Shown piece after piece: positions 10,815 to 23,506 of a stretch of DNA of 40,313 nucleotides (positions are counted from its first letter, which is position 1; every line of letters begins with the position of its first letter). The notes under the pieces were generated by a model that had not been told where the DNA came from, made no database searches, and worked only from the letters and a program-made list of their open reading frames with translations. The stretch is from assembly GCA_002069125.1 (NCBI GenBank), contig MVZN01000024.1:1-40313 (forward strand), in the 5' to 3' direction. Made by a program: the position numbers and the translations under genes. The stretch is from Spirochaetes bacterium ADurb.BinA120 (GTDB lineage: Bacteria > Spirochaetota > UBA4802 > UBA5368).

Positions 10815-13800
10815 TTATTTAAGCCTGTCCACTATCTTCTTCAGCGACTCCGTTTCCGGAAGCACCATGAGTTTGCCTATCACCCGGTCATTCTGATAAT
10901 AGAATTCGGTATCCATAACCAGCACATAGTCGTTGGAAATATTGTGGAGCACCAGTATGGAATCGAGGATGGACTGCATGAAATCGTGCACTATGGTCGG
11001 CACGGCCGGCTTGATCGCTATTGTCGTTTTCTCCGAAATGACGTTTATCACCGACGAGCCGATGATGTTGGTGACCTCTTTGAGGGCCGACTCCCCATCC
11101 TCGTCGAGTTCCCGCGTCCTGCCGCTCTCTATGCCGTAGAGCATGTCGATGAGCTCGAAACCCGCCTGCTCGGCCAGGCCGAAAAGTATGGTCCCCTTGA
11201 TGTCGCCGACCAGCGGCATGTAGACCCCTATATAAACATTGTCGACCTCGCCGAATGTTTCCGGCACCTTCTCGACCGGAAGGAGCTCGACCACCGGTAT
11301 GGAAAGGTCGATCTGCTTGCCGAGGATCTTCGAGAGGGATTCGGCGGCGTTCGTTATTCCGACGTTTGCGAGGACCTGCACCCGCTCCATATCCTCCTCG
11401 GTGATGCCAAGCGACTTCTTTATATGGCCGTCGGGCCGGCCGCCCTCCACGGTTGTCTTAATGCTTTCCTTAAGCTCGTCCTTGAAAGAACGAAGAACGT
11501 CGCGCACCTTTTCCTCGATCGCGGCATCGTCTCCGGCGGGCTTCGCCGGCCTTGCCTCCGGCCCTGGGGCCGGTTTCGCCTCCGGGGCCGCGCCCCTTCG
11601 CTCGAACACGATATCTTCCTTTACCGGACCCACCTCGGGCGGCGCGCTTTTTACGGGCTCCTCACGCCTCGCTGCCTCCTTCGCCTGTGGAGCTGGGGAG
11701 GCCGTCATCGAGGCCGGCTCGGCGGCGGAGCGCGACAGGACGGGGATCTCCTTAACCTCCTCCACCCCCGCGGCCTTCCGCTCGACAACGCGCTGCCGCT
11801 GCGCCCTCGACAGCCGGTCCTGTTCGCTTATCACCCGGTTGATCATCGAAGCGATGTCCAGGATCAGGCAGATGCTGCCGTCGCCCAATATCGACGCTCC
11901 GGAGAGGCCCTCCACGGTCGCATAATTCTGCTCCAGCGACTTGATGACGATTTCCTGTTTGCCCTCCAGATGGTCCACGATCAGCCCGATCTTGCGGTTT
12001 CCGTATCCCACTACGACCACCGGCATCTTTCGGTCTTCATCGACCCCGCTCTCTATCCCGACGAATTCGTTTAGCCGTAGCAGGGAGAGGATCTCGCCCC
12101 TCAGGTTTATGACCTCGTGTCCCTCGATTGTGGTGATGTCGGCGAAGGAAATCTTAATTGTTTCGATGACGTCAGACAGCGGAATGGCGTACAGCTCGTG
12201 GCGCACCTTGACCATGATGGCCGGAATGATCGCCAGCGTCAGCGGGAATGACAGCAGAAACCGTGTTCCCATGCCCGGCTCGGTCTCGATGCTGACGTTG
12301 CCATTGAGCTCGGAGACGATCTCCTTTACGACATTCATCCCCACGCCGCGCCCCGAGACATCAGTGACCACATCGGTGGTGGAGAAGCCCGGATGATAAA
12401 TAAAGGAATAAATCTCCTCGTTGTCCATGTTGGCAAGCATCTCGGGGGAGGCCAGCCCCTTCTCGAGCGCTTTCTTCTTTATCCTGCCGGCGTTTAGTCC
12501 GCGCCCGTCGTCGCTAACCTCGACAAAAATCTGGTTGCCCGACTGATAGGCATTTAGCGTGACGGTCGCCGTGTCGGGTTTGCCGATTTTTCTGCGCTCC
12601 TCGGCGGTCTCCAGCCCGTGGTCGATGGCGTTTCTGATGAGGTGCATCAGCGGTTCGCCTATCGCGTCTATGACCTTCTTATCGAGCTCGGTCTCCTCGC
12701 CCCTTATCTGCAACGCGACCATTTTGCCGAATTCCTTCGCAAGGTCGCGGACAAGGCGGTTGAATCGTGTAAAGACCTGCCCCACCGGGACCATCCGCGT
12801 TTTCATGATCCCGCCCTGCAGATCTTTGGCGATGCGGGACATCTGGTCCATGCGGTTTTTGAATTCATTGGTGAGCGACTTGTCGAGGTTGGCCTTGCGC
12901 ATCTCCTCGTAAAGACGGAAGAAGCCCGAGTTTGCGATGACCAGCTCCCCCACATTGTTGAGCAGCAGGTCCAGTTTGTCCACCGAGACCTTGACAATTT
13001 TTATGGCTCCCGCCTTTTTGTCGCCCCTTTTGCGTATGGTCTCGATCTTGTAGTCTTCGCTCTCCTCCTCGTCATCGTCCTCGTCCGTATCTCCTTCCGA
13101 ATGGTAAAGCGCCGTCGAAGCATCCTCCTGCCCGTACTCCTCGTTGAAGAGGGTCTCCTTCTCATGGAATTTAAGCACCGTCTTGTCGTCTTTCCGGCTC
13201 AGGCTGATCTTCTTGAGATCGATTCGCGTAATCTGGTCGACCTCGCAGGCCCTTCGGACATCCTCCACCGACGCCGCGGTTAAAATGACCACCTTGAATA
13301 CGTCGGTCTGATTGTCCGCCTGAAGCGTCTCGAGCGGCGGGGCTATGGAAACTATCGAGGCGATTTTTTCGAGATTGGCCTGCACAAGCTGGGCCTTTAT
13401 CCATTTCATCTGGGCCGAGGGATCGACGAAGACTATTACCTCACAGCATGACATGCCCCCCTCGAGGCCCTCCTTGACCTGCCTCATCTGCGCGGCCGAG
13501 AGCGCGGTTTTGGGGATATCGCCGGCCTCACGGGCGGCCTTCGCCGGACGCGCCTGCGGCGCCGACGCCCCCTCGCTGATTTCCTTTATTCTCTCTATGA
13601 TTTCGGAGAGGTCCTGGTCGGGGTTTTTCCCCGCGCCCACGGTATCGATCACGGAGCTTATAACGTCAAAACAGTTGAAGAGCACGTCTACGACGGCGGG
13701 GCTTACCTGCATGGTCCTGTCGCGTATTCCCTGCAGCAGGTTTTCCATCTTGTGGGCCAGGTCGCTCAGGTCGTTCAGGCCGACGAAGGCGGCCGAACTC

Positions 13801-13952
13801 TTCAGCGAATGCGCCGCCCTGAAGATATTGTTGATGATGTCGATGTCGTCGGGTTTTTTTTCAAGCTCAAGCAGGTTCTGGTTGAGCTCCTGAAGCTGTT
13901 CGTCCGCTTCTTCGAGAAATATATCCTGATATTCGCCCAAGGAAAACGCCAT
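10815..13952 (-). CDS. cheA: CheA histidine kinase fused to a C-terminal CheC-type domain
   Basis: Chemotaxis kinase that phosphorylates CheY and CheB. At 1045 residues it is much longer than usual (about 650-750). In order: HPt domain (2-103) with phospho-acceptor His48 in RAAHSLKSSAAF; a P2-like domain (about 150-250); an acidic linker; P3 dimerisation (313-383); P4 ATPase (about 385-575) with HLIRNAIDHG, DDGRG and SGRGVGM; the CheW-like P5 domain (about 580-710); an Ala/Pro/Glu-rich linker (710-845); and a CheC/CheX-family domain (about 850-1045). The second CheC motif, S-x3-E-x2-N-x22-P, is intact (Ser955, Glu959, Asn962, Pro985). The first keeps Asn863 and Pro886, but the Glu position is Val860. 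The ATG at 13952 has GGGGTG at good spacing; a GTG at 13958 is the alternative. Confidence 0.95.
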   Translation of the reverse strand: MAFSLGEYQDIFLEEADEQLQELNQNLLELEKKPDDIDIINNIFRAAHSLKSSAAFVGLNDLSDLAHKMENLLQGIRDRTMQVSPAVVDVLFNCFDVISSVIDTVGAGKNPDQDLSEIIERIKEISEGASAPQARPAKAAREAGDIPKTALSAAQMRQVKEGLEGGMSCCEVIVFVDPSAQMKWIKAQLVQANLEKIASIVSIAPPLETLQADNQTDVFKVVILTAASVEDVRRACEVDQITRIDLKKISLSRKDDKTVLKFHEKETLFNEEYGQEDASTALYHSEGDTDEDDDEEESEDYKIETIRKRGDKKAGAIKIVKVSVDKLDLLLNNVGELVIANSGFFRLYEEMRKANLDKSLTNEFKNRMDQMSRIAKDLQGGIMKTRMVPVGQVFTRFNRLVRDLAKEFGKMVALQIRGEETELDKKVIDAIGEPLMHLIRNAIDHGLETAEERRKIGKPDTATVTLNAYQSGNQIFVEVSDDGRGLNAGRIKKKALEKGLASPEMLANMDNEEIYSFIYHPGFSTTDVVTDVSGRGVGMNVVKEIVSELNGNVSIETEPGMGTRFLLSFPLTLAIIPAIMVKVRHELYAIPLSDVIETIKISFADITTIEGHEVINLRGEILSLLRLNEFVGIESGVDEDRKMPVVVVGYGNRKIGLIVDHLEGKQEIVIKSLEQNYATVEGLSGASILGDGSICLILDIASMINRVISEQDRLSRAQRQRVVERKAAGVEEVKEIPVLSRSAAEPASMTASPAPQAKEAARREEPVKSAPPEVGPVKEDIVFERRGAAPEAKPAPGPEARPAKPAGDDAAIEEKVRDVLRSFKDELKESIKTTVEGGRPDGHIKKSLGITEEDMERVQVLANVGITNAAESLSKILGKQIDLSIPVVELLPVEKVPETFGEVDNVYIGVYMPLVGDIKGTILFGLAEQAGFELIDMLYGIESGRTRELDEDGESALKEVTNIIGSSVINVISEKTTIAIKPAVPTIVHDFMQSILDSILVLHNISNDYVLVMDTEFYYQNDRVIGKLMVLPETESLKKIVDRLK

Positions 13953-14032
13953 GGCCACACCCCGCGCATTATTGTAGAATTGTCCGCTCCCCCTGGCGGC
14001 GCCTGTCCGCCCGGGAACCGCCCCGGCCCGTG

Positions 14033-15041: not shown

Positions 15042-15977
15042 ATGGAAGTCCCGGACATGTATGTAGGCATAGATATCGGATCCATAAGCGCCAAGCTGGT
15101 AATAAGCGGCGAGGATGGCTCGATTCTATACTCCGATTACCGGTATCACCGCGGAGAACCGTCCGGGGCCGTGGGCTCTCTGTGCCGGTCGGCCCGTGAG
15201 GCCGGTTTCGCGCGGTATCGCGCCATGTGCGTCACCGGTTCGGGAAGGAACTTCATAGGGGAAGTCCTTTGCGCGGATCTCGTGAAAAACGAGATTACCG
15301 CCACCTGGGAGGCGACGCGCGTCCTCCTGCCGGAGGCCGGAAGCATCATCGAAATCGGAGGGCAGGATTCCAAGCTTATTTCCCTGGAAAACGGAGAGAT
15401 CTCGGATTTCCGCCTGAACTCCGTATGCGCGGCGGGCACTGGCTCCTTCATCGAACAGCAGTCGAACCGGCTGGGCATCACCCCCATGGAGCTGTCCGAT
15501 CTCGCACAGATGGCGGAAAGGCCCGCGCGATTCACCGGCCGCTGCACTGTCTTCGTCGAAACCGAGATGATCAATCTGCAGCAGAGGGGATGGAGCGTGG
15601 AATCGATCGCGGCGGGCCTCTTCGAAGCGGTCTGTGAAAATTATCTGAACGATCTCGGGTCGGGCATGAAAATCACCGGCCCCGTCATGTTTTGCGGAGG
15701 GGTCTCGGAAATGGAGGCGATGCGCCTCGCCTTTTCCAGGCGGCTCCAGATGGAGGTGATCGTTCCCTCCGCAAACAGGGTCGCGGCGGCCTATGGCGCC
15801 TCGGTGCTCGCCTCTCGCGCCACGCGGCCAGCGCCGGAGCGCGAGCTCCCGGAAAGGGTCGCCCCCCCGGACCGGCCATTGCGGCCGTGCGACGGGAGGG
15901 ACTGTCTCACCTGCGGTCTCTGTTATACGAAGAGGCCTTCCCGGCTCAGCGGTGGGCCCTTTCCAGGCTCCGGTTGA
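15042..15977 (+). CDS. 2-hydroxyacyl-CoA dehydratase activator-type ATPase (BadF/BadG/BcrA/BcrD family)
   Basis: ASKHA-fold ATPase like HgdC, a homodimer with one [4Fe-4S] cluster that drives electrons into a 2-hydroxyacyl-CoA dehydratase or benzoyl-CoA reductase. The 311-residue protein has the phosphate loop GIDIGSISAKLVI, IEIGGQDSKLI, NSVCAAGTGSFIEQQ and FTGRCTVFVETEM. The Cys in SVCAAG and in GRCTVF match the cluster ligands of HgdC. GPVMFCGGVSEME is the adenosine motif. The C-terminus adds CDGRDCLTCGLC (Cx4Cx2Cx2C), which could bind a further cluster. No dehydratase subunit lies nearby, so the partner is unknown. The ATG at 15042 is chosen; ATG 15057 is possible. The 3' end overlaps the convergent lipoprotein gene by 32 bases. 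Confidence 0.85.
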   Translation: MEVPDMYVGIDIGSISAKLVISGEDGSILYSDYRYHRGEPSGAVGSLCRSAREAGFARYRAMCVTGSGRNFIGEVLCADLVKNEITATWEATRVLLPEAGSIIEIGGQDSKLISLENGEISDFRLNSVCAAGTGSFIEQQSNRLGITPMELSDLAQMAERPARFTGRCTVFVETEMINLQQRGWSVESIAAGLFEAVCENYLNDLGSGMKITGPVMFCGGVSEMEAMRLAFSRRLQMEVIVPSANRVAAAYGASVLASRATRPAPERELPERVAPPDRPLRPCDGRDCLTCGLCYTKRPSRLSGGPFPGSG

Positions 15978-17979
15978 GCGAGACCACGCGGCCGTTCTCC
16001 AGGCCCACATAAACCTCGTTTCCAACCACGCTCGCGGCCGTGCTGATCCTTCCCGGGGCCTGGTGCTTCCACTGTATGCCGCCGCCCACGGCGTCCATCG
16101 CGAAGAGCGTGTCGTTGGCGGAGATGTACAGCACTCCGCCGCTCAACACCATGGAGTTCTTCACCGGGCCCCCAAGCGCCTTACGGGCCAGAATGTTGCC
16201 ATTGTCAAGGTCGAGCCAGGTAACCGCCCCCTTCAGCCCGGCGACCACTATCCTGTTCCCGGCTACGATCGGGATGGTGATAAAGGTGTCCGACAGGTCC
16301 TTCCTCCAGAGCTCCGTCCCCTTTTCCATATCGAGGGCCGAGACCGCGCCGTAGTAACCCACCACGTATAGCGTGCCCTTATGGTAGGCCAGCCTGAATT
16401 TAGCCCCCGGATCGGCCGTCCACTGCTCCCTGCCGGTCTGCGCGGCGAGGGAATGGAGCTTCCCGTCGCTTGCGGAAACCAGGAGCCGGTTGTTCACCAA
16501 TATCGGGGTCTCAAAAACGCCCGCGGCCGCGTTGAATTTCCAGTTGCGTTTGCCCTTAAGGCTGAACGAATACACCGTCCCTCTGGTCGTGGCGATATAG
16601 ACCGAGCCGGGGGTGACTACCGCCGTCATCGTATCGATCACCGCGCCGTCAAGCTTTTCGCTCCACAGGGTTTCGCCCGTATCCATGGAGAGGGCGTTGA
16701 ATTTCTCGTCGGCTGTCGCGAAATAGAGCGCGTTGTTATCGTGGGCGATGCCGGATGTCACGAGCCCGCTTTGCCTCTCCCAGATCTTGGCCGCGTTTTT
16801 TCTTTCGAAGGAGATGAGCGTTCCCTCTCCCGTGGCAACGAATACGCGGTGGCCGGAATATACCATTTCCTTCACGGGGGATTTTACGTCAAGGTTCCAG
16901 CGCACCCTGTCGAGCGGACGCAGTCTGGCCAGCTCAATTTTCTCCTTTATGGGCCGGTCGGACGAAAGCGCGATGTCCCTGGCGAAGTCCTCGTATCCCT
17001 CGGCCTCGATCTTCAGGGAATAGGAACCAACCGGCATCTCGATCGAGATGTTCCCCGATCCCGCAAGCTCGCCGTTAAGAAATACCCGGGCGCTCTCCGG
17101 CATGACCGACAATTCGATCCGCCCCTTCTCCACCACGCTCTCCCCGGCCGGCGCCTTTATCTCGACTACCTTCATTTCCTCGAATTCCTTTTTCAGCGCC
17201 GCCTCGTTGCGCACCTCGTCGGCCTTGATGGCCTGTATCGCGGCTATCCGCTCGACCGCCTTCGCGACCTCGACGGGCGGGGCCTCGGCCTTTTTTTCCT
17301 CTACGGCGACAACGGCCTCCACCACCTTTTCCACCTGGGTATTGGCCCTTGCGACCTCCCTTGCATCGACCTTCACCGCCCTGTTCTCGGTTACTGTCAC
17401 GGCGCTTTCCTCAACCTGCGCCTCGAGCTTCCTTATAAGCTCCGATTCCCGGACGGTTTCGTTCTCTATATTCTCCAGGGCGGCTATGCGCTTGCTTACC
17501 CGAACATTGCCGTCCACCACCTCGACACGAGTGTCTTTCGACGGGCTTGTTTCCACCATAAACATCGTACCCCTCACTCCGGCCACCGCCGTAGGGGTTT
17601 TAATCAAGAAGCTTTCGCCCTTCACGAGTTTTTTGGGCTTGGCGAGTACGGTCCCCAACGCAAGTTCGAGCGAGGTGTTTTCGATACCGGTGGAACCTTC
17701 CAGGAAAAGCGCCGCCAGCGCCAACTCGCTTTTCTCCTTGACGCGCACCACGCTCGTGCCAACCTGCACGTCGACCGTTCCTCCCGCGCCGGTCCGCACG
17801 CGGTCCCCCTGCGCGAGCTCCATACCCATATCGGCGCCGCCCCAGGCATTGTTACGGAATACCTGGGCCTCTCCTATCATGAATGTTATTACCGCCCTCG
17901 ACCTGTTCTCCGCCTTCTTCGAACAGGAGAAGGAAAAGACAACCGCCATCGACAGTAAAACCGCCATTGAACGTTTCAT
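15946..17979 (-). CDS. Lipoprotein with FecR, PEGA and PQQ-like beta-propeller domains
   Basis: The 677-residue protein starts at the ATG at 17979, which has a strong AAAGGAGGG upstream; the longer frame to 18042 lacks one. Residues 1-19 form a lipoprotein signal ending FSFSC, with Cys19 as lipid site, a relaxed lipobox as known in spirochaetes. Then follow a FecR-type domain (about 28-165; TPTAVAGVRGTMF), a long charged helical segment (166-275), a PEGA domain (about 286-350; SVMPESARVFLNGELAG) and a PQQ-like propeller (about 365-677) with blades such as LLVSASDGKLHSLAAQTGRE. It should sit in the envelope, outside the cytoplasm. It is third in an operon with an ECF sigma factor and a related transmembrane protein, 75 bases after the latter. 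The ligand is unknown; PQQ binding is not implied by this fold. Confidence 0.88.
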   Translation of the reverse strand: MKRSMAVLLSMAVVFSFSCSKKAENRSRAVITFMIGEAQVFRNNAWGGADMGMELAQGDRVRTGAGGTVDVQVGTSVVRVKEKSELALAALFLEGSTGIENTSLELALGTVLAKPKKLVKGESFLIKTPTAVAGVRGTMFMVETSPSKDTRVEVVDGNVRVSKRIAALENIENETVRESELIRKLEAQVEESAVTVTENRAVKVDAREVARANTQVEKVVEAVVAVEEKKAEAPPVEVAKAVERIAAIQAIKADEVRNEAALKKEFEEMKVVEIKAPAGESVVEKGRIELSVMPESARVFLNGELAGSGNISIEMPVGSYSLKIEAEGYEDFARDIALSSDRPIKEKIELARLRPLDRVRWNLDVKSPVKEMVYSGHRVFVATGEGTLISFERKNAAKIWERQSGLVTSGIAHDNNALYFATADEKFNALSMDTGETLWSEKLDGAVIDTMTAVVTPGSVYIATTRGTVYSFSLKGKRNWKFNAAAGVFETPILVNNRLLVSASDGKLHSLAAQTGREQWTADPGAKFRLAYHKGTLYVVGYYGAVSALDMEKGTELWRKDLSDTFITIPIVAGNRIVVAGLKGAVTWLDLDNGNILARKALGGPVKNSMVLSGGVLYISANDTLFAMDAVGGGIQWKHQAPGRISTAASVVGNEVYVGLENGRVVSLNRSLERAHR

Positions 17980-18054
17980 GACCAGCCCTCCTTTCTCGAC
18001 AGATGACCTTCCATTAATAATACACCGTAATGGCGGGCGCAAGTGTCCGCCGTT

Positions 18055-20091
18055 CTATTTCCTGATTTGATATATTCCGTTGCCTTCCGTTCCAAAGTAC
18101 AGGGTCCTGCCGGATATCGCGATATTTGTCGCCGATTCCGTGGGTGTGACAATCGACCACTGTACAGTTCCCCGGTCGGTGTCGAACACGTAAAATACCC
18201 GGCGCGACAACACATACAGGTCCCGCCCCTCAACAATCGGACTGCGATTGACCGGTCCGCCGAGGTTGGCGCTCCATAGCTTATGGCCGCCAAGCGAGAG
18301 CTTGACCACATCGCCTCCCGAGGAAACCACATACATGTATTCCCCTTCCACGACCGGGTCCGCCGTAATCGCCCCCCTCACGCGATGGCTCCACTCCGTC
18401 TCATCGCGCTCCACATTATGGCAGGCCACTACACCCTCGAAATTCGCGTAATACAGCCGCCCGTTCCGGGCGATCACCGAAGAGCCGACGATCCTTCCCG
18501 AGTCTATCCGCATAACGGCGATCCTAAGCACAGTGTCGATCACGTGGATCCTGCCGTCCTGAAGCGGTACGAACAGCAGACGCCCCTCGACCACGGGAGT
18601 CGAATAGGAAGCCGCGGGAAGGCTCAGGCTCCATTCCTCCCTTCCCTGACGGTTGAATCTGTACAGCACGCCTTTTGCAGTCGCCAGATACAGTCCGTTC
18701 CCGTCCACAGCCGGCCGCGCGCCGAAATGCAGCACCCCGTCGACCTTCCTGGTCCAAAGCTCCTTGCCGTTGTCGGAAGAGAGCGCGATAATGCGCTCGT
18801 CCGCCGTGGCGAGATAGATAATTCCGCCATCGAGAACGGGCCGGGTGAGTATCGGCGATCCGCAGCGAAAGCGCCATGCCACAGCCCCCCGGCGGAGCGC
18901 GTCGACGCGGCCGTCCATTCCGACCGCCATAAAAAGGCCCCGCGAATCGTCAACGAGGATATGGGAGGCCCTGGTTCTCTCCATCCATTCATTCCGGTCG
19001 AAAATACCGGCGCCCCCTTGTTTCACATCGGCGCGCTCCGGCTCTTCTCTACCACGCAGGTCGCCGGAAAGCCTCCGCAATTCGGTCATCAGGGTGGGCG
19101 GGGATTCGGCGCTGGTGTATATCCTGGGGGGGGGCGCCTCCGCCGCCATTGTCCCGATGGCATCCGCAATACGCCTGCCGTCCGGTTGTCCACTTTTTAG
19201 CCGCAGGTCGGCCACAATCCGTTCCATTTTATCCGCAAGTGCGCGGACCTCGCTCGCCCTCACCTCGCAGACCTCGTTCGCCTCGACCGCGACCGCCCGT
19301 TCGGCCAGCCCGTGCTCCATCTCGTCGAGCGCGAGTCGTGTCTCTTCATCCGGCGTTTCGGTCGGATCGAGCAGAACGCGTCCCCTTACGTTTATCCTGC
19401 CTTCCAAAACCTCGTAGCGTACATCGCGCCTTGTCGATACGGAGACTCCGAAACTCGTTCCGCGCACACCCGCCACGGAGGTCGGCGTACGCACCTCCGC
19501 AACGTCTCCACGACCGAGTTTCCTGAAGCTGAAAAGCGCCGTGCCCGATGAGAGTTCCAAGCCGGCGCGCAGTTCGCCCCCTCCGTCACGGTGCAACTCG
19601 TCTATTCGGAAGCGGGAATTCCGCTTGATGTGTACGATGAGTTCGTCCCTGTATCGGAGCTCGGCGAAGGATAGCGCTCCGGTAAGCACCGTATCGCCCG
19701 CGCCGAGCGCCGTCCCCTCGCCCAGCGGCGAAAGTCGGCCTTTCCGTTCGAAGCGCACATCGCCGTGGACCGGTCCGGCAATCGCCTCGTAAACGGCGCC
19801 GCCATCACCGGCCCGGAAGATGAGAGCCGCCGCGCCGGCGGCCATCACCAGCGCCGCCGCCGCCAGAAGCGCTTTGGCGCGCGTCATGGCAAATGCTGGC
19901 GCGGCGGGCCACCGTCCAGCGGCCCCGGCCCGCACGTGCGCGATGCCCTGCCGTATGTCGAGCGGCGGGCAGTCAAAACGGGCGCGGTCGAAAACGACGG
20001 CGAGCGAGCGCGACTGCCCCTCGGAGCAGCGTCCCTCCGAACGAAGGCTTTCCACGATCGCGTTTATTTCCTCTTTAATATGGGGTTCCAT
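18055..20091 (-). CDS. Transmembrane FecR / PQQ-like beta-propeller protein, putative sigma regulator
   Basis: The 678-residue protein has a cytoplasmic N-terminus (1-70), one membrane span (about 72-92), a FecR domain (about 98-235; RTPTSVAGVRGTSFGVS), a helical linker, and a PQQ-like propeller (about 375-678; repeats such as IIYLATADERIIALSSDNGK and LYLATAKGVLYRFNRQG). Position and topology suggest an anti-sigma or co-sensor for the ECF factor 40 bases upstream, as FecR works with FecI. The N-terminus lacks the HxxxCxxC zinc motif of ZAS anti-sigma factors, so this is inference. The ATG at 20091 has GGAGG upstream; a GTG at 20112 is weaker. It shares its FecR and propeller layout with the next gene, so the two probably arose by duplication followed by changes in membrane anchoring. 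Confidence 0.87.
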   Translation of the reverse strand: MEPHIKEEINAIVESLRSEGRCSEGQSRSLAVVFDRARFDCPPLDIRQGIAHVRAGAAGRWPAAPAFAMTRAKALLAAAALVMAAGAAALIFRAGDGGAVYEAIAGPVHGDVRFERKGRLSPLGEGTALGAGDTVLTGALSFAELRYRDELIVHIKRNSRFRIDELHRDGGGELRAGLELSSGTALFSFRKLGRGDVAEVRTPTSVAGVRGTSFGVSVSTRRDVRYEVLEGRINVRGRVLLDPTETPDEETRLALDEMEHGLAERAVAVEANEVCEVRASEVRALADKMERIVADLRLKSGQPDGRRIADAIGTMAAEAPPPRIYTSAESPPTLMTELRRLSGDLRGREEPERADVKQGGAGIFDRNEWMERTRASHILVDDSRGLFMAVGMDGRVDALRRGAVAWRFRCGSPILTRPVLDGGIIYLATADERIIALSSDNGKELWTRKVDGVLHFGARPAVDGNGLYLATAKGVLYRFNRQGREEWSLSLPAASYSTPVVEGRLLFVPLQDGRIHVIDTVLRIAVMRIDSGRIVGSSVIARNGRLYYANFEGVVACHNVERDETEWSHRVRGAITADPVVEGEYMYVVSSGGDVVKLSLGGHKLWSANLGGPVNRSPIVEGRDLYVLSRRVFYVFDTDRGTVQWSIVTPTESATNIAISGRTLYFGTEGNGIYQIRK

Positions 20092-20131
20092 TCCTCCGGC
20101 TCCCGTCCGCACCGTACAGATTCCGCGCCTG

Positions 20132-20698
20132 TTATACCACGTTTCTGGTTTTTAACCGGTCCACGATCTTTTCCACGGCCTTCCGCATCCGCCATTTGGC
20201 GGTTCGCTCCGGACAATCAAGTATGCTCGAGATCTGGCTGTACTGCATCCCGTGATCGAACCTCAACAGGAACACGGTCCTAAACTTTTCTTTTAAAGCG
20301 TCCACGGCGAGGTGGAATTCGCGCATGTCCTCTTCCTTAAGGTAAAGCTCCTCGGGCGAACCCTCCGGCGAGTTGACAGCGTCCATCTGCTCCCCGCCGA
20401 CCGTCAGTCTGTCGTGCCCGTGCTTCTTTCGGAAATTCTTGCAGCAGTTGACGGCGATACGATAGATCCACGACGAGAAGACCATGTCGGTATTGAACGA
20501 ATCGATATGCAGAAAAACCCTCATGAATACATCATGGAGCACGTCCTCGGCCTCGTCCGCGTCGCCAATGGAATAGACGATGAGCCGTTTGAGTCTGGGC
20601 GCATATCGCTCGTACAGTTCATCGAAAGCCTTCTGCTCGCCCCCCCTGAACCGCCTGACAAGTTCCTCGTCGCCTGTGACAACTGACACTTCGATCAT
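20132..20698 (-). CDS. ECF-type RNA polymerase sigma factor
   Basis: The 188-residue protein has sigma region 2 (about 10-85) with FDELYERYAPRLKRLI and DEAEDVLHDVFMRVFLHI, and region 4 (about 128-182) with FRTVFLLRFDHGMQYSQISS followed by a DNA-binding helix CPERTAKWRMRKAVEKI. Regions 1.1 and 3 are absent, typical of the extracytoplasmic-function group. It would direct polymerase to promoters controlled by an envelope signal. It is first in an operon with two FecR/propeller proteins. The ATG at 20698 has only a weak ribosome-binding site (AAAG). A promoter and a dyad operator lie upstream. Confidence 0.94.
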   Translation of the reverse strand: MIEVSVVTGDEELVRRFRGGEQKAFDELYERYAPRLKRLIVYSIGDADEAEDVLHDVFMRVFLHIDSFNTDMVFSSWIYRIAVNCCKNFRKKHGHDRLTVGGEQMDAVNSPEGSPEELYLKEEDMREFHLAVDALKEKFRTVFLLRFDHGMQYSQISSILDCPERTAKWRMRKAVEKIVDRLKTRNVV

Positions 20699-20730
20699 CA
20701 GTTACTTTAAATACCCGTTCAATGATTAAA

Positions 20731-20748
20731 AGTGTAAAAAAATACACT
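20731..20748. promoter_or_regulatory. 18-bp dyad operator candidate upstream of the ECF operon
   Basis: AGTGTA (20731-20736) and TACACT (20743-20748) form an exact inverted repeat around a run of six A on the plus strand. It lies just downstream of the expected start from the candidate promoter at 20763-20791 and about 33 bases before the sigma gene, the classic place for a repressor site. No transcription factor gene adjoins it. Confidence 0.45.
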
Positions 20749-20762
20749 GGACCGACCGGGGT

Positions 20763-20791
20763 ATCATAGAAGAAACGCCCTGGAAGGTAAA
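20763..20791 (-). promoter_or_regulatory. Candidate promoter of the ECF sigma operon
   Basis: TTTACC (20786-20791) and TATGAT (20763-20768) on the minus strand with 17-base spacing; expected start near 20756. The remainder of the 190-base gap to zapA shows GC-rich short palindromes but no T-run terminator. Confidence 0.45.
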
Positions 20792-22206: not shown

Positions 22207-23142
22207 TTAAAATTGGAGCCTTAGCTCCAGGCCGATCGTCTCGCCGGGATAATGCCGTTTTCGGACGGCGCTTACAGTCGTGGATATGCCGGCAAAAGCG
22301 TTGTACGAGAAAAAGTACCTTCCACCCGCCGAAAAAAGAAGCGGGTTGACGCCCATCCCCTCGACGGGGATCCGCTTATCCTCGCCGCCGACCCGGGCGA
22401 AGCGCCTTGACGCATATACCGATACCCACGGGATGAGCGGATAAACGGCGTCGGTGTTGAGGGCCAGCGAGCCTGCGGCGTAGTCGTTCGCCAGGCGATC
22501 TCCATTCAGAAACGCGCCATCGGCTGCGAAGTTGAGCCCGAGAACCTTGCTGTACGTCTCCTTTTTGGCCGGGTTCAGGTAAATGCCGTTATAAAAACCC
22601 TCCCGGTCTTTCTCCCTGAATATCCAGAAAAGGTTGGCGTGGAGGACGAACGGTCCGGCCTCGTACTGCGCCACGGGGCCCAGTTTGAGCTCGTTGTTGC
22701 CAAGCGCAAGGTTCCTCCAGCGCTTCACGCTGTACGCGTTTGGGCCCGTGGGAAAACGAAAGAGCGAGAGAAGCCCCCATCGCAGGGAGCCGCCCGGGGT
22801 GCCCCCGGCGTACCACCACAGGCGGACGAAGGTGTCGCCAAGCGCGGAATCATTGCCGGAGATGGGCCCGTTGTGCAGATACTGCATATACACCCGGGCG
22901 GAGAGGCTGTCGAGAATGCCGAAACCTATGCCGAACGTGTCCCGGCGAAAGCCGCCGTCGTGACTGAAGAATTCCTCATTTACCAGCAGCTCCATCGATC
23001 CCTCGGGGAGCGTGCCGATGGTTTCCGTGTGGGGCATGGACGCATACGCCCCGGTTGAAAATGAAACAAGCGCCGCAAGCAGGGCGCTTATTATTTTTTC
23101 GCATGATGTGTTCCCGGCGCTCAGGCCGAGGGTCTGGAACAT
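22207..23142 (-). CDS. Putative outer-membrane beta-barrel protein
   Basis: The 311-residue protein begins with a signal peptide (about 1-35; IISALLAALVSFSTGAYA) and continues with alternating amphipathic strands rich in aromatic residues, such as SARVYMQYLHNG and DTFVRLWWYAGG. It ends GLELRLQF, with the C-terminal Phe typical of barrel proteins inserted by the BAM machinery. I do not recognise the family and assign no substrate. The ATG at 23142 lies seven bases after the rplT stop and has only a weak ribosome-binding site, so it may be translated with rplT. An envelope gene tightly behind the infC-rpmI-rplT cluster is unusual. Confidence 0.7.
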   Translation of the reverse strand: MFQTLGLSAGNTSCEKIISALLAALVSFSTGAYASMPHTETIGTLPEGSMELLVNEEFFSHDGGFRRDTFGIGFGILDSLSARVYMQYLHNGPISGNDSALGDTFVRLWWYAGGTPGGSLRWGLLSLFRFPTGPNAYSVKRWRNLALGNNELKLGPVAQYEAGPFVLHANLFWIFREKDREGFYNGIYLNPAKKETYSKVLGLNFAADGAFLNGDRLANDYAAGSLALNTDAVYPLIPWVSVYASRRFARVGGEDKRIPVEGMGVNPLLFSAGGRYFFSYNAFAGISTTVSAVRKRHYPGETIGLELRLQF

Positions 23143-23149
23143 ACCCGGC

Positions 23150-23506
23150 TCAGGATATCTTTTCCTTGACTGCGCTGACGATCTGGGCAAAGGCCTTGGG
23201 GTCGCTTACGGCGAGGTCCGCCATCATCTTGCGGTTCATTGCGATACCGGCCTTTTCCATTCCGGCCACAAGCCTGCTGTACGACATGCCGTTCTGGCGC
23301 GCCGCGGCGTTGATCCTTATGATCCACAGCGCCCTGAATTCCCTTTTTCTGCGCCTTCGGTCCTTGTATGAATTCTCCAGGGCCCTGCGCCGGGCATCCT
23401 TTGCGGTTCTAAACAGCTTTTTACGGGCGCCGTAAAAGCCCTGGGTGTCCTTTAAAACCTTTTCGCGCCGTTTATGGTGTACCTTACCGGTTGTTGCACG
23501 TGGCAT
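23150..23506 (-). CDS. rplT: Ribosomal protein L20
   Basis: Large-subunit protein essential for early 50S assembly, and in several bacteria a repressor of its own operon. The 118 residues match L20 throughout: MPRATTGKVHHKRREKVLK, the very basic helix (residues 30-60) and the globular end with SYSRLVAGMEKAGI and MADLAVSDPKAFAQIV. GGGGAAG precedes the ATG. It is the last gene of infC-rpmI-rplT. Confidence 0.98.
   Translation of the reverse strand: MPRATTGKVHHKRREKVLKDTQGFYGARKKLFRTAKDARRRALENSYKDRRRRKREFRALWIIRINAAARQNGMSYSRLVAGMEKAGIAMNRKMMADLAVSDPKAFAQIVSAVKEKIS

Follow-up and report, generated by a model that had tools for sequence, protein, structure and literature searches.

In the Fec system, an STN domain is required on the receptor, and the regulator FecR carries the DUF4880 and FecR_C domains. 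In FecR, the cytosolic domain is three-helical (PMC9249621). The described system nearest to the locus presented here is the LIC12757/LIC12756 pair of the spirochaete Leptospira interrogans. According to two reports, the N-terminal domain of the FecR-like protein LIC12756 binds and inhibits the sigma factor LIC12757, which autoregulates (PMC13118517, PMC12155086). They also state that LIC12756 both inhibits and activates, that FecR is required for full FecI activity (PMC12155086, PMC13118517), and that the level of LIC12757 goes up under iron limitation (PMC12155086).

The locus lies in a window of 40,313 nucleotides, the whole stretch of DNA that was analysed, from Spirochaetes bacterium ADurb.BinA120 (contig MVZN01000024.1). 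Like the Leptospira pair, it contains a gene for a spirochaete ECF sigma factor adjoining that of a single-span FecR-like protein. With LIC12756, the membrane protein shares about 70 cytoplasmic residues, and for neither was a FecA-type signalling receptor found. Autoregulation, which is reported for LIC12757, is suggested here by a conserved promoter-like element. The membrane protein carries a propeller, whereas LIC12756 has 350 residues and is described without one. Furthermore, the sigma lineage differs from that of LIC12757, no close orthologue having been found outside the order in the searches, and a lipoprotein gene, which is present at this locus in some genomes, is not mentioned for the LIC12757/LIC12756 operon in the parts of the reports consulted. 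The original prediction regarded the circuit as possibly undescribed; this holds for the present architecture, as far as searched, but PMC12155086 and PMC13118517 already describe an ECF/FecR-like pair (LIC12757/LIC12756) in a spirochaete, including anti-sigma activity of the N-terminus.

Both the FecI-FecR-FecA system of E. coli and the locus combine a sigma factor with a regulator that crosses the membrane once, has three helices in its cytosolic domain (as predicted, for the locus) and carries a periplasmic FecR domain. Unlike the Fec system, the locus is without DUF4880, FecR_C and STN, and an eight-bladed propeller stands in the place of FecR_C.

Gene order and conservation of the sigma/membrane-protein pair

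The assembly of the host genome comprises 3.5 Mb in 216 contigs, and its closest relatives in a named collection are metagenome-assembled Spirochaetes, including UBA5368 and Go_SlDig_bin_136. As originally predicted, an ECF sigma factor, a single-span FecR/propeller protein and a FecR-PEGA-propeller lipoprotein are encoded in this order on the minus strand, with domains assigned by Pfam. The sigma factor gene (20132-20698, minus strand) codes for 188 residues. It is followed by the gene of the membrane FecR/propeller protein, a putative sigma regulator of 678 residues with an ATG start (18055-20091, minus strand), and by an accessory gene, also with an ATG start, for a lipoprotein of 677 residues with FecR, PEGA and BamB-like propeller domains (15946-17979, minus strand). 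A longer, TTG-start reading frame of the lipoprotein (to 18042) was judged to be a mechanical extension, and the ATG start was taken instead.

The assignment of the sigma factor is based on Pfam (Sigma70_r2, 5e-15; Sigma70_r4_2, 8e-10), on an alignment of 27 orthologues and on the fold of an orthologue. As expected of an ECF factor, it consists of regions 2 and 4 only. In the fold comparison, the orthologue resembles sigmaE and SigW with Z about 14.8, and the best NCBIfam matches of the sigma factor include SigW models. Its relatives with more than 40% identity were seen only in metagenome-assembled Spirochaetes genomes, and the matches that come next, from gamma- and betaproteobacteria, do not exceed 35%.

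For the comparison, a set of 59 genomes, the host's included, was used, in which sigma orthologues (42% identity or more) are separated by a clear gap from paralogues (36% or less). Such orthologues are found in 27 of the 59 genomes, belonging to four families of one uncultured spirochaete order, and within contig limits the membrane-protein gene follows directly after the sigma gene in all 27, in the same synteny. Among the sigma-lacking genomes of the set, no full-length orthologue of the membrane protein was found, G027 aside, where the gene lies at a contig end and the sigma position falls outside the contig. In several genomes, the two genes overlap or nearly overlap. Same-genus identities are 83-89% for the sigma factor and 62-74% for the membrane protein; together with a gene order kept across four families, they indicate that the locus is not a product of chance. 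An adjacent, conserved membrane protein with a cytoplasmic N-terminus, as belongs to an ECF sigma/anti-sigma pair, is thus seen in 27/27 cases, and the conserved adjacency, the synteny and the same place of the transmembrane segment in all of them argue for a cognate sigma/regulator pair. Pairing and synteny, like the topology, domain make-up and promoter-like element described below, are read from the sequence.

Around the pair, the genes run thrS-infC-rplT-exported protein-zapB-zapA-sigma-membrane protein-(lipoprotein)-(BadF-like ATPase)-cheW-cheA, an arrangement that all 27 genomes retain as far as their contigs reach. The gene of the BadF/BadG-type ATPase (15042-15977), which lies on the opposite strand and converges on the lipoprotein gene, is present at the sigma locus only in the window's own family. 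Adjoining CheW, a CheA with a C-terminal CheC/CheX-like phosphatase domain is encoded at 10815-13958, and most relatives likewise carry it on the downstream side of the sigma locus. Between rplT and zapB, a protein of about 300 residues without a Pfam family (22207-23190) is kept in nearly all sigma-positive genomes at 24-79% identity. It looks exported, is perhaps a barrel and represents a candidate outer-membrane partner.

The membrane protein and the lipoprotein

In the membrane protein, Pfam detects FecR (5e-13) and PQQ_2/BamB (8e-32) domains. About 70 cytoplasmic residues are followed by a transmembrane helix (residues 74-92), the FecR domain (133-233), a helical linker and the propeller (367-678). 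The cytoplasmic N-terminal domain (19882-20091, minus strand) is predicted by AlphaFold to form three helices (3-18, 24-36 and 46-57). The single transmembrane helix (19816-19872, minus strand) coincides with the one strong hydrophobic span of the protein and lies within an AlphaFold helix of residues 69-93, the FecR domain is placed by Pfam at 19393-19695 (minus strand), and the eight-bladed BamB-like propeller (18058-18993, minus strand) is delimited by the AlphaFold model and a fold match. In all 27 orthologues the span starts at residue 62-80, and K/R are mostly more numerous before it than after it; the single-span topology with a cytoplasmic N-terminus, which had been proposed at the outset, is borne out by these features.

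The AlphaFold model of the membrane protein, made with the 27 orthologues, has a pLDDT of 84.8. Its propeller matches BamB (Z 31.8, 19% identity) and the designed eight-bladed Cake8 (Z 34.4), a fold match that says nothing on the ligand of the protein. The propeller is eight-bladed like that of BamB (YfgL); unlike BamB, it follows a FecR domain in a protein anchored to the inner membrane, and binding to BamA is without support. Proteins of about 1000 residues with BamB-like propellers are also encoded outside the sigma locus in many relatives (G031:C24, G040:C4, G025:C36 and others).

A domain scan of the 27 membrane-protein orthologues found FecR (PF04773) in 26 and PEGA in five. The orthologue of G019 (L082, contig C186, 7840-9189) lacks the FecR domain and keeps the N-terminus, the transmembrane helix and the propeller, which hints at the propeller as the part essential for sensing. 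In G006, the sigma and membrane genes share one frame, a natural read-through fusion. Used to model the sigma factor together with the N-terminus, this fusion folds well, with a pLDDT of 84, but reaches a pTM of 0.52, and in the fold search its match coverage was that of the sigma part alone. The N-terminal domain has no sequence match to a known anti-sigma domain, and its profile has none among PDB sequences. It did not match E. coli FecR either, in a comparison whose FecR side was a single-sequence profile and which, as it likewise missed the shared FecR domain, is uninformative. A search of the open-access literature for propeller anti-sigma factors, which proves little, found none. We infer that the N-terminus of the membrane protein binds the sigma factor, and on the same footing stand the direction of control, the signal, the release mechanism and the regulon in the model proposed below.

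The lipoprotein contains FecR (1e-14), PEGA (3e-10) and PQQ_2 (5e-40) domains according to Pfam. It begins with a signal peptide and a spirochaete-type lipobox (17923-17979, minus strand), of which Cys19 is invariant in 8/8 sequences, and its FecR domain is encoded at 17500-17805 (minus strand). The first 290 residues match LipL45 (NF033165) with 7e-33 and 114 bits against an NCBIfam cut-off of 350, and the protein is related to the LipL45 family without being a member of it. In addition to the LipL45-like part, the lipoprotein has PEGA and the propeller. A tree of FecR domains separates the membrane proteins from the rest by a moderately supported split (84/85) and places the lipoproteins among LipL45-like proteins. 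An origin of the lipoprotein as a tandem copy of the membrane protein finds no support in this tree.

The lipoprotein gene follows the membrane gene in nine genomes (G000, which is the host, to G006, G027 and G030). Thirteen others (G010, G013, G016, G017, G021, G023, G024, G028, G031, G032, G035, G037 and G043) have no such gene in the interval from the membrane gene to cheW, and at least three of them, G013, G035 and G037, carry unlinked relatives of it. Because the lipoprotein is absent from the locus in many genomes that keep the pair, a three-gene circuit is not general, and the two-gene core is. The lipoprotein is an occasional, lineage-specific accessory and not a constant partner of the sigma/membrane-protein pair. 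The original prediction was to fail if the three genes were rarely together in related genomes; its two-gene core passes this comparison and the lipoprotein does not, so that a standing place of the latter in the circuit is not supported. Nothing speaks for the suggested contact between two related propellers either; by its FecR domain, the lipoprotein clusters with LipL45-like lipoproteins and not with the membrane protein.

A promoter-like element and a candidate regulon

Before the sigma gene lies a putative autoregulatory ECF-type promoter, TTACACTTTT-N12-GGTAT (20711-20737, minus strand), which ends 12 nt before the start codon. Its two-box consensus, TTRCACTTTT-N12/13-GGTAT, is found with 0-2 mismatches at 22/27 sigma loci, for each of which 200 shuffles gave none equally good, and in 19 of the 22 it ends 12-14 nt from the start codon. 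The 59 genomes hold ten exact copies, all at the sigma gene, and besides this element no other block shared across families was evident in the sigma upstream regions. The spacing CAC-N16/17-GGTAT is that of the SigW promoter, TGAAAC-N16,17-CGTAT (PMC2375139). The -35 side of the element is more conserved than the -10 side, and its nearly invariant -35 box is paralleled by the region-4 recognition helix ERTxKWRM, which is unusual and nearly invariant in the 27-orthologue alignment. The element, newly described here, is likely to be the autoregulatory promoter of the sigma factor. No Rfam match was obtained for it. The short distance to the start codon and the lack of a clear Shine-Dalgarno sequence before the sigma gene point to a near-leaderless sigma transcript. 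Further upstream, a sigma70-like promoter, TTTACC-N17-TATGAT (20763-20791, minus strand; five same-genus upstream regions aligned), is conserved in the genus only and is a possible basal promoter.

In the host genome, an unlinked gene for a LipL45-like FecR lipoprotein has the relaxed box TTRCAYTTTT-N12-DGTAT 52 nt upstream, and another FecR lipoprotein gene has a box with one mismatch 159 nt upstream (G000:C34:25362-25388, L225). LipL45-like genes are preceded by the box (0-2 mismatches, about 50-150 nt upstream) in 17 of 25 sigma-positive genomes versus 0 of 12 sigma-negative ones; in one of the 17, G003, the spacer measures 13 nt and the box departs from the stricter pattern at three positions. 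The association with sigma presence has a Fisher p of 7e-5, for genomes that are related and not independent, and of 0.005 if similar boxes further upstream in two sigma-negative genomes are counted. A sigma70 promoter (TTGCAT-N18-TATAAT-like) can equally be read in the box before the LipL45-like genes. Genome-wide, the relaxed motif has 34 matches versus roughly 26-30 in the reversed control, with no gene class beyond sigma and LipL45-like genes; as it is not otherwise enriched, the regulon may be just the operon. The LipL45-like FecR lipoprotein gene may belong to a small envelope regulon of the sigma factor. An exact relaxed box (G000:C9:26124-26150, L218) is also present 20 nt before the gene of a small exported MORN-repeat protein, which has no identifiable orthologue in the relatives.

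A proposed envelope-signalling switch and its alternatives

The best explanation of the locus, and in our judgement a probable one, is a self-amplifying cell-envelope signalling switch made of the sigma factor and the membrane regulator. A weak basal promoter would provide some of both proteins, and the three-helix cytoplasmic domain of the regulator, of about 70 residues, would hold the sigma factor at the membrane. The FecR-propeller ectodomain would read a periplasmic event, which may be the binding of a ligand, the loss of a partner or a regulated proteolytic step, and this event would free or activate the sigma factor. The freed or activated sigma factor would then transcribe its own operon from TTRCACTTTT-N12/13-GGTAT and probably drive a small envelope regulon that includes the unlinked LipL45-like FecR lipoprotein. 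The lipoprotein of the operon would be an accessory of certain lineages and might serve as a partner of the sensor or as a target.

The direction of control could differ from this model, in that the membrane protein may act mainly as an activator or co-sigma (pro-sigma) and not as an inhibitor. This has an appreciable though minor probability, given that full FecI activity needs FecR and that LIC12756 has an activating as well as an inhibiting effect (PMC12155086, PMC13118517); the sequence does not decide. Slightly less probable is that the element before the sigma gene is a site for sigma70 or another sigma factor, or a translation signal, with no autoregulation through it. Such a role would agree with the constant interval of about 12 nt before the start codon and with the absence of an obvious Shine-Dalgarno sequence, but a near-leaderless transcript accounts equally well for the distance, the geometry is ECF-like with the -35 side better conserved than the -10 side, the unusual near-invariant region-4 helix parallels an unusual near-invariant -35 box, and Rfam offers no match. 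A more specific version of the switch would be conserved, TonB-independent and trans-envelope, with the BamB-like propeller replacing the receptor-reading part of FecR and reading outer-membrane assembly or a lipoprotein partner. It would drive a near-leaderless, autoregulated sigma gene by way of the unusual -35 element and the unusual recognition helix. Taken as a whole, we regard this version as unlikely.

More doubtful still is the three-gene circuit, in which the membrane protein and the lipoprotein would sense jointly via their propellers and the lipoprotein would present the signal. The genes are adjacent in nine genomes, among them the six nearest relatives (G001-G006), the two proteins have related domain sets and both propellers are BamB-like, but 13 pair-keeping genomes lack the lipoprotein at the locus, at least three of them have unlinked relatives, and by its FecR domain the lipoprotein falls into the LipL45-like group. 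A genuine iron system of the FecI/FecR/FecA type, its TonB receptor encoded at a distance, is the least probable of all and very hard to uphold. It would draw on the co-occurrence of a FecR domain and an ECF sigma factor, on TonB-barrel genes elsewhere in the genome and on the rise of LIC12757 under iron limitation that is described for Leptospira (PMC12155086). Against it, STN and DUF4880 have no match in the host genome and none above the cut-off in the 59 genomes, and FecR_C (PF16344) is absent from the membrane protein and from the scan of its 27 orthologues; in the same kind of scan, the positive control E. coli FecR was matched by DUF4880, FecR and FecR_C. The operon contains no TonB receptor, and the four TonB-barrel matches in the genome that are over the cut-off or nearly so all lie on other contigs, which agrees with the earlier claim that no such receptor is nearby. 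With these three defining domains missing, the locus is not a Fec system, and the membrane protein may work like FecR without being a member of the Fec type. The pairing of a sigma factor with a membrane FecR/propeller protein, and no FecA-type receptor, was rightly foreseen, given the strict co-occurrence, the synteny and the missing STN domain.

The proposed switch of sigma factor and membrane regulator concerns large uncultured spirochaete lineages, in which envelope stress signalling is little known and FecR domains are abundant without FecA-type signalling receptors. The locus offers a testable sigma/regulator pair that is conserved across four families and has a defined candidate promoter, and LipL45-like FecR lipoproteins are a first guess at the regulon of the sigma factor. 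Should the propeller prove to be the sensor, FecR-type regulators would have a source of input other than TonB receptors, and there would also be a hypothesis for the role of LipL45-type proteins in Leptospira.
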